Origin: Planctomycetota bacterium | GTDB lineage: Bacteria > Planctomycetota > UBA1135 > JAKEFM01 | NCBI GenBank assembly: GCA_022616055.1 | Contig: JAKEFM010000265.1 | Coordinates: forward strand, 1 to 64,000 | Reading direction: 5' to 3' | DNA: 64,000 nucleotides | Part shown: positions 44,003 to 45,921 of the stretch, piece after piece | Layout of the letters: the number at the start of each line of letters is the position of its first letter | Numbering within the stretch: the first letter of the stretch is position 1 | The notes under the pieces: generated by a model | The model's input: only the letters and a program-made list of their open reading frames with translations | Database searches by the model: none | What the model was told of the DNA's origin: nothing | Translations under genes and position numbers: made by a program

Positions 44003-44078
44003 TGGTGGGTGAGGCCGGAATTGAACCGGCGACCCCGTGATTTTCAGTCACGTGCTCTACCTGCTGAGCTACCCACCC
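44003..44078 (-). tRNA. tRNA-Phe (anticodon GAA)
   Basis: The reverse strand gives a 76-base cloverleaf: acceptor GGGTGGG/CTCACCC (one G-T pair), D-stem GCTC/GAGC, anticodon stem CGTGA/TCACG with loop CTGAAAA and anticodon GAA, and T-arm GCCGG-TTCAATT-CCGGC. The discriminator is A and the CCA is encoded (44005-44003). Confidence 0.96.
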
Positions 44079-44094: not shown

Positions 44095-44123
44095 ACGCTA
44101 GCCGCAGGGAAGGATCGCGTCAA
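44095..44123 (-). promoter_or_regulatory. Promoter of tRNA-Phe, its -35 formed by the stop codon of the ribF tail copy
   Basis: On the reverse strand TTGACG (44123-44118), a 17-bp spacer and TAGCGT (44100-44095) end 16 bases before the tRNA. The TGA stop of the truncated ribF tail (44122-44120) is part of the -35. At the intact ribF gene the same TTGACG is present but the -10 context is missing. Confidence 0.6.
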
Positions 44124-44280
44124 CGAAGGGCGAGGGCGGCCTCGACGTCCGCCCGGATCGCAGCTCGCAGCTCCTCGACTCCGGCGAAGCGCCGCTCCTC
44201 CCGCAGCTTCGCCAGGAATTCGACCTCCAGCGTCTTGCCGTAGAGGTCTCCCAGCCCAGGAGGTGGACCTCGACCCTGTC
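44120..44280 (-). pseudogene. Truncated, frameshifted copy of the ribF 3' end
   Basis: Positions 44120-44252 align with 45001-45133, the end of intact ribF, with about six mismatches in 133 bases. Both encode LYGKTLEVEFLAKLREER followed by RF or HF and the same tail to the stop. Upstream of LYGK the copy continues VSWSQDRVEVHLLGWE, but one base is missing at the junction (ACCTC in place of GACCTC), which breaks the frame, and no domain start exists. It is therefore a remnant tail lying directly upstream of tRNA-Phe. Confidence 0.75.
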
Positions 44281-44545
44281 CTGGGACCAGGAGACGAGGG
44301 GGTTCGGGGTCAGGTTGAGCGGGGGGAGGCACCTGAGACTCGAACCAGGGTCGAGGCCCTTGAGGTCTTGAACAGCGTCGACGTGACGAGGTACTGGCGC
44401 AACCTCGCCCTTCTGGACCGGGTGGGTGACGAGGTTCTCGCGCTCCCGTAGCGGTCCGGCCTCGGACCGCGCGACCCGACCCTCCCCCTAACGCCCCGCC
44501 CCCCCGGCGGCCGATGATCGCGTGCGCGACCGACGGAGGCCCAGA
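44253..44545. other. Gene-poor stretch with possible coding fragments
   Basis: No complete gene is visible. A forward reading ending at 44451 includes VDVTRYWRNLALLDRVGDEV, which looks protein-like, but it has no start or context. A T-arm-like GGTTCGAGTC on the reverse strand near 44340 does not form a tRNA. Confidence 0.35.
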
Positions 44546-44875
44546 GTGACGAACTCGCGACCGAGCATTCCGGTCCCCTTCGAGGGGGCGGACGGCGCAT
44601 GCGAGGGGTTCCTGAGGCTCGGCGAAGGCGCGGGCGTTAAGGAGAAGAGGAAGGCCCTCGCATCGGCGATGAGGGAATTCGCGTTCGGGATGGCGAGGTT
44701 CGCCGACTCCCTCGACCCGGGGCCGGTGCGCACCCCGAAGCACTGGGACTTTCACAGCATCGTGGAGCTCTTTGAGGGGACGGTGCAGGAGGTCCTCACG
44801 ACCGAGGAGAAAAAGAGGGCTTGGCAGACGATGGAGGCTCCCACCCCGCAGGCGGCATCTCGCGGGCGAGACTAG
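44546..44875 (+). CDS. Small hypothetical protein in the ribF-adjacent insertion
   Basis: 109 aa from a GTG at 44546 with GGAGG seven bases upstream; a GTG at 44522 is possible. The reading is rich in Ala, Glu, Phe and Arg, with an amphipathic helical middle (KRKALASAMREFAFGMARF) and third-position GC typical of genes, but no recognised domain. It lies between the truncated and the intact ribF tails and ends within the last codon of a reverse-strand fragment. It may be cargo of an insertion. Confidence 0.5.
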   Translation: MTNSRPSIPVPFEGADGACEGFLRLGEGAGVKEKRKALASAMREFAFGMARFADSLDPGPVRTPKHWDFHSIVELFEGTVQEVLTTEEKKRAWQTMEAPTPQAASRGRD

Positions 44876-45000
44876 ACGCGCGGCCTCTCCGCCGCGATGT
44901 CGACCCCGAACGAGCGGTAGAGCCCGCGGAGGATCCCGGCGGCGACGGGGGTGTAGCGCCCGTCAAGCCCCCTCCACTCCGACCCCCGCTGAGGAAGGCG
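44872..45000 (-). pseudogene. Unidentified C-terminal gene fragment
   Basis: A reverse-strand reading from the ribF stop to TAG at 44874-44872 gives LDGRYTPVAAGILRGLYRSF followed by GVDIAAERPRV. It is protein-like in composition but has no start and no recognised family. It looks like the end of a gene brought in or cut by the rearrangement that duplicated the ribF tail. Confidence 0.3.
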
Positions 45001-45921
45001 TCAACGAAGGGCGAGGGCGGCCTCGACGTCCGCCCGGATCGCGGCGCGCAGCTCCTCGACTCCGGCGAAGTGTCTCTCCTCCCGCAGCTTCGCCAGGAAC
45101 TCGACCTCCAGCGTCTTGCCGTAGAGGTCTCCCGAGAAGCCCGGGAGGTGGACCTCGACGACTTCCCCCTGCGCCCCGCCGAAGGTCGGCCGCACGCCGA
45201 GGTTCGCGACACCGCGGCGCCGTCCGCCGTCGAGGACAGCGTCGACGGCGTAAACCCCGCGCGGCGGGCGCAGCTCGTGGTGGAGGTTCAGGTTCGCCGT
45301 CGGGAACCCGATCGCGCGGCCGCGACCGTCGCCGTGGACGACCGTCCCCATCACCGAGACGGGCCGGCCGAGGAGGGCCGCCGCGGTCGCGAGGTCGCCG
45401 GAGGCGATCGCCTCGCGGATCGCGCTCGACCGGGCGGGCCGCCCGCCGACGAGGACCGGGGGCACGACGAGGACCTCGAAGCCGAGGAAGGCTCCCATCT
45501 CCGCGAGCCGGGCCGGGTTCCCCTCCCGGTTCTTTCCGACCTTCGCGTCCGGACCGAGGACGACGGCACGGGCGCCGAGGCGCCCGACCAGCCAGTGGCG
45601 GACGAAGTCCTCCGCGGAGGTGTCGCGGAGGTTCTCGTCGAAGTCCGCGACCAGGACGAGATCGGCTCCGGCGCGCTCGAGGAGGACGAGGCGGTGTTCG
45701 AGGGAGGTGATCTGCGGGGGCGCCTTCCCGGTTAGGAGTCGGCGCGGGTGTCTGCGGAAGGTGAGGACCGCCGCCGCGCCGTCGAGCGCGCGAGCGCGCC
45801 GGACGGTCGTCCGGAGGATCTCCTGGTGGCCCAGGTGGACCCCGTCGAAGACCCCGACGGTCGCGGCCGAGCCGTTCGGAGGCGGCGCGAAGGGCTTCCG
45901 GGGATCGAGGACGGTCTGCAT
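45001..45921 (-). CDS. ribF: Bifunctional riboflavin kinase / FAD synthetase
   Basis: 306 aa, normal length. It phosphorylates riboflavin to FMN and adenylates FMN to FAD, which among others supplies EtfA in this window. The N-terminal FMN adenylyltransferase domain has GVFDGVHLGHQ and the SSAIREAI motif. The C-terminal riboflavin kinase domain has GTVVHGDGRGRAIGFPTANL and the conserved Glu in GDLYGKTLEVEF. Its last 133 bases are duplicated near tRNA-Phe, 881 bp away. This is the intact copy. Confidence 0.95.
   Translation of the reverse strand: MQTVLDPRKPFAPPPNGSAATVGVFDGVHLGHQEILRTTVRRARALDGAAAVLTFRRHPRRLLTGKAPPQITSLEHRLVLLERAGADLVLVADFDENLRDTSAEDFVRHWLVGRLGARAVVLGPDAKVGKNREGNPARLAEMGAFLGFEVLVVPPVLVGGRPARSSAIREAIASGDLATAAALLGRPVSVMGTVVHGDGRGRAIGFPTANLNLHHELRPPRGVYAVDAVLDGGRRRGVANLGVRPTFGGAQGEVVEVHLPGFSGDLYGKTLEVEFLAKLREERHFAGVEELRAAIRADVEAALALR

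Follow-up and report, generated by a model that had tools for sequence, protein, structure and literature searches.

A ribF tail duplicated beside tRNA-Phe in a Planctomycetota genome, and recurrent overlap of the ribF stop codon with a likely tRNA-Phe -35 element

Integrative elements that restore the gene into which they insert include Tn5253 in rbgA and SGI1 in trmE. The site at which Tn5253 restores its target gene is 83-84 bp long (PMC8571831). In type VI effector gene arrays, incoming DNA that brings a gene end of its own pushes the former 3' end downstream, and this end persists there (PMC5361080). Single-crossover integration, which duplicates a shared segment, and insertion by one-sided homology are also documented in bacteria; most recombinants obtained with a one-sided donor in E. 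coli were duplications of the shared segment, and homology-assisted insertion was usually accompanied by a deletion of similar size (PMC3240628).

We compared these systems with a ribF-tRNA-Phe locus in a 64,000-nucleotide stretch of Planctomycetota DNA (the window), which is nearly all of its 64,028-base contig. Read along the minus strand, intact ribF is followed by a 717-bp stretch, a second ribF end, and tRNA-Phe (Table 1). As in elements of the Tn5253 and SGI1 type, a direct repeat of a gene end flanks the insert, the gene is whole, and the old end lies on the far side. In contrast to these elements, the insert is only 0.7 kb long, lacks a recombinase, and has no second element at the site, and the displaced end additionally carries a predicted promoter half-site. 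Moreover, the repeat of 164-168 bp exceeds the Tn5253 site, which lies at the start of rbgA rather than at its end. Campbell-type integration and homology-facilitated illegitimate recombination resemble this locus in that a shared segment is duplicated around added DNA and only a homology anchor is needed; unlike in the latter process, no deletion is visible at the ribF site. The displaced old 3' end persists downstream as in type VI arrays, but there it is chiefly an immunity gene that is retained, whereas here it is a putative promoter half-site, and the two tails code for one and the same end of the protein.

Table 1. Features of the ribF-tRNA-Phe locus (positions in the window).
Feature	Position	Strand	Evidence
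Intact ribF, encoding a bifunctional riboflavin kinase/FAD synthetase; its end is tail copy 2	45001..45921	-	Pfam FAD_syn 7e-41, Flavokinase 1e-40; TIGR00083 above cut-off
Tail copy 2: 3' end of intact ribF and ~9 bp past the stop	44992..45159	-	Repeat
Open stretch of 42 codons immediately following the ribF stop, without a relative	44875..45000	-	
717-bp insert between both tails	44275..44991	.	No second copy in the genome; GC 0.697, tetranucleotides ordinary
Orphan ORF, 109 aa, GTG start	44546..44875	+	Shine-Dalgarno-like GGAGG at 44535-44539; third-position GC 0.86
Tail copy 1: the displaced end of ribF, 4 bp deleted, 41 bp from tRNA-Phe	44111..44274	-	Repeat; spacing in relatives
TTGACG, proposed tRNA-Phe -35, containing the TGA stop (44120-44122) of tail copy 1	44118..44123	-	Sequence; overlap in relatives
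TAGCGT, proposed -10 (spacer to the -35, 17 bp)	44095..44100	-	Sequence; identical hexamer before tRNA-His of this genome
tRNA-Phe (GAA), the sole one found in the assembly	44003..44078	-	ARAGORN; Rfam 72.6 bits; anticodons of the other tRNAs

The Planctomycetota genome assembly amounts to 5.78 Mb in 394 contigs and is fragmented, with an estimated completeness of 94.6%. Its genus and family are represented by this genome alone in the collections searched, which contained no strain-level relative, and the nearest RibF proteins, likewise from Planctomycetota, are 55-59% identical. Because close relatives are lacking in these collections, the history of the locus must be read from distant genomes.

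Comparison of ribF-tRNA-Phe spacing in relatives supported the ancestral order ribF-tRNA-Phe proposed in the initial annotation. tRNA-Phe lay on the same strand and at most 260 bp after ribF in 60 of the 81 class loci examined (median distance, 68 bp), and the pair is also present in Scalindua and other Brocadiia. Among the remaining class loci, tRNA-Phe was 1.3-10 kb away in 10, inverted in 4, and unseen in the DNA examined in 6; a contig end intervened in 1. The distance of copy 1 from tRNA-Phe is within the usual range, which implies that copy 1 stands in its native place and that what was added is the DNA separating ribF from copy 1. The initial claim that DNA was inserted between ribF and the former tail was likewise supported, with copy 1 at the ancestral distance from tRNA-Phe. 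RibF was matched in 140 genomes of the class, and none of them except the window's own had a second RibF tail on the same contig.

The separated loci (L116, L117, L118, L120, L121, L128, L133, L150, L159, and L170) and the inverted loci (L114, L145, L149, and L153) all lack a second ribF tail, and the pair has been broken repeatedly in the class.

The tail repeat itself is unambiguous. The 133 bases noted initially (44120-44252 compared to 45001-45133) match with exactly 6 substitutions at an offset of 881, but they understate the extent of the repeat, which is ~164 bp in copy 1 and ~168 bp in copy 2. It comprises an ungapped 142-bp match (44111-44252 compared to 44992-45133; 94%) at the same offset and, beyond the 4-bp deletion in copy 1, a continuation to 44274/45159 with one further mismatch at an offset of 885. 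The alignment scored 142 compared to a maximum of 22.5 among 300 shuffles. Both edges of the repeat are sharp, and the similarity is lost within ~10 bases 3' of the stop codon. No ribF homology was detected upstream of 44274, either with a RibF profile, where shuffles scored higher, or at the DNA level, where 20 of 300 shuffles were equally good. VDAV and RVEVHLLGW hinted that the ribF remnant might extend further upstream than copy 1, but this reading failed the profile search and the DNA shuffles and was rejected. A few bases past the sharp edge of copy 1 lies a near-perfect palindrome, TCCTGG-GA-CCAGGA (44279-44292).

The 717-bp insert gave few indications of its source. Its GC content is slightly below that of the window (0.725) and its tetranucleotides are unremarkable, and since this composition is ordinary for the genome, it lends no support to a foreign origin. 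The 109-aa ORF, whose ribosome-binding site is good and whose third positions resemble those of coding sequence, had no homologues in its own genome, the class, the phylum, viral contigs, plasmids, or phages; weak matches at E values of about 1e-3 were short stretches within unrelated ORFs and were discarded, and its single-sequence structure model was poor (pLDDT 54). The ORFs of the insert had no Pfam, PHROG, or NCBIfam match and included neither a recombinase nor a transposase. The 42-codon open stretch is probably not a gene. Within the assembled genome, the insert has no second copy beyond a 26-bp match on another contig (C348), which lies inside an unrelated protein gene and was attributed to chance. 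Terminal inverted repeats were absent, the best end-to-end inverted match scoring 11, and the hallmarks of a transposon or IS are missing, with a flanking duplication of ~165 bp rather than a short one and no transposase. The possibility that the insert contains the decayed remains of a second tRNA-Phe or of a leader was rejected as well, because alignments on the relevant strand were no better than shuffles and Rfam returned nothing credible. On the minus strand, 44328-44360 (CCTGGTTCGAGTCTCAGG) resembles the T-arm of a tRNA but has one additional base; ARAGORN and Rfam find no tRNA in this region.

All eight tyrosine-recombinase (Phage_integrase) matches in the genome are on other contigs. 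One (C101:13433-13870) is near tRNA-Gly(CCC) (C101:14098-14169), and another (C149:3362-3871) shares its contig with tRNA-Glu (C149:1448-1522); these two loci are possible tRNA-targeted integrated elements.

We also asked which of the two tails arrived later. Within the final 133 bases, the codons of copy 1 and of intact ribF differ as GAA/GAG, CGG/AGA, CGC/CAC, CGA/CGC, and GCT/GCC, respectively, and further upstream copy 1 encodes L where intact ribF encodes P. At the first replaced residue, R of copy 1 occurs in 64 of 156 relatives compared to 1 of 156 for H of intact ribF; at the second, L of copy 1 occurs in 95 and P of intact ribF in 2 of the 156. Most of the substitutions are synonymous, and AGA, found in intact ribF, is a rare codon; at three synonymous differences, it is copy 1 that has the rarer codon (GAA, CGA, and GCT). 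The idea that a slightly different tail came in therefore gains some weak support from the rare H and P of intact ribF, tempered by the few substitutions and the small numbers. The comparison, based on 7 substitutions and on a nearest relative with 59% RibF identity, leans toward copy 2 as the odd, imported tail.

The initial annotation had also placed the stop codon of the copied tail inside the -35 of a tRNA-Phe promoter, and this gained support: the TGA lies within TTGACG in the arrangement TTGACG-17-TAGCGT, tRNA-Phe begins 16 bp beyond, and the same overlap recurs in relatives. A generic scan for E. coli-type sigma-70 promoters did not list this promoter, whose -10 matches TATAAT at 3 of 6 positions. 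Comparable boxes precede other tRNA genes of the genome, namely tRNA-His (TTGACT-16-TAGCGT), tRNA-Gly (TTGACA-16-TAGATT), and tRNA-Pro (TTGAGC-17-TAGCAT). We infer that the predicted promoter is in use. Only one of the 40 tRNA genes found in the 94.6% complete assembly is a tRNA-Phe, which thus appears to be single-copy, and for this reason selection has probably retained the displaced ribF end.

The overlap is not confined to this genome. The ribF TGA falls within TTGAC in 21 of 81 distinct loci with adjacent ribF and tRNA-Phe, a set that includes other classes and differs from the 81 class loci used for gene order, compared to 0 of 77 non-adjacent loci, of which 34 were counted as same phylum and 43 as others. 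The corresponding Fisher p values, 2e-7 overall and 3e-4 against the same-phylum non-adjacent loci only, and the count itself are inflated, because most of the 21 loci share descent within one family. Restriction to loci with a TGA stop gave 21 of 44 adjacent compared to 0 of 39 non-adjacent loci. tRNA-Phe comes next after ribF in each of the 21 (L005, L035, L037, L091, L095, L097, L107, L124, L130, L131, L136, L138, L139, L142, L151, L152, L155, L161, L164, L168, and L173), and the spacer from TTGAC to an AnnnT hexamer is 17 bp in 19 of them and 16 and 18 bp in the other two. They belong mostly to one family, within which they span many genera, with few outside it, and their flanking sequences differ. 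A TTGAC occurs somewhere between the ribF stop and tRNA-Phe in 51 of the 81 adjacent loci, often slightly downstream of the stop. The differing flanks and the frequent downstream position imply that the overlap is recurrent rather than universal. Overlap of the ribF stop with a likely tRNA-Phe -35 is thus a recurrent arrangement in Planctomycetota and the more general result of this analysis; a limited literature search found no published description of it.

The explanation that best fits these observations, and that we consider probable on the whole, is that tail-bearing DNA was inserted by recombination and the old tail was retained as the tRNA-Phe -35. In the ancestor, tRNA-Phe would have followed ribF by ~41 bp, with the ribF TGA inside the -35 TTGACG. 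A recombination event within or next to the ribF tail would have added a closely related ribF tail and ~0.7 kb of other DNA (~0.9 kb in total), leaving ribF whole and ending in copy 2, while copy 1 would have been pushed away together with tRNA-Phe. The old tail would now be non-coding, and its last bases would remain selected as the -35 of the only tRNA-Phe found. As the route, we judge it plausible, if not quite probable, that foreign DNA anchored by a ribF tail entered through a single crossover or a homology-assisted insertion. The duplication of a shared segment flanking added DNA that single-crossover integration requires is present, and neither the crossover nor the one-sided homology route needs a gene in the insert. 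However, nothing is missing from ribF or from the tRNA leader, and the site shows a duplication and no deletion; because homology-assisted insertion usually costs a deletion, this counts against our preferred explanation. We rank crossover-type insertion first, followed by an integrative element and then local duplication, with assembly error a small but real risk.

The initial annotation had likened the locus to integrative elements that replace the 3' end of their target gene. According to this reading, a site-specific element, now decayed, would have integrated by recombination within the repeat's upstream portion, with its own tail at attL and the host tail at attR, and would since have lost its integrase by deletion. 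The anatomy fits, in that the direct repeat runs from an internal core to the stop, ribF is restored as the target of Tn5253 is, and the old tail lies on the far side, and the mostly synonymous substitutions are those expected between two functional tails. Replacement by such an element was nevertheless not demonstrated, because the insert has no recombinase, known domain, or relative, the recombinase matches of the genome lie elsewhere, and the lack of a second ribF tail in other class genomes leaves no sister element at the site. Crossover or homology-assisted insertion explains the layout equally well and needs less, and we regard the integrative element as unlikely. We give somewhat less credence still to repair of a DNA break or of a stalled fork close to the end of ribF that would have copied the native tail twice with unrelated filler in the middle, both copies having diverged since. 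Such an event would explain the repeat without a foreign tail, and the rare codons GAA, CGA, and GCT in copy 1 are what decay predicts; yet the residues rare in relatives sit in intact ribF and not in the dead copy, and the 717 bp have no counterpart in the assembled genome from which they could have been copied, so that a simple template switch is disfavoured. Finally, the assembly could have joined ribF ends from two strain variants in a single contig. The tails differ as strain variants do, the genome is fragmented, and its nearest named relatives are MAGs, but the 717 bp are unique, contain a plausible gene, have normal composition, and leave no trace on another contig, and the second tail allele is absent elsewhere in the assembly. 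We consider this artefact very unlikely.

For insertion of tail-bearing DNA with retention of the old tail, a broader and distinctly tentative proposition, which we think rather doubtful as it stands, is that in Planctomycetota the ribF stop doubles as part of the tRNA-Phe -35 and that, through this sharing, insertions at the ribF end are tolerated only if they supply a ribF tail themselves. If this is true, the old tail persists in the role of a promoter, and the window would show such an insertion after the fact. The locus offers a readable case in which a gene pair that shares stop-codon and promoter bases was split with both functions preserved, in a poorly studied phylum in which the overlap recurs.
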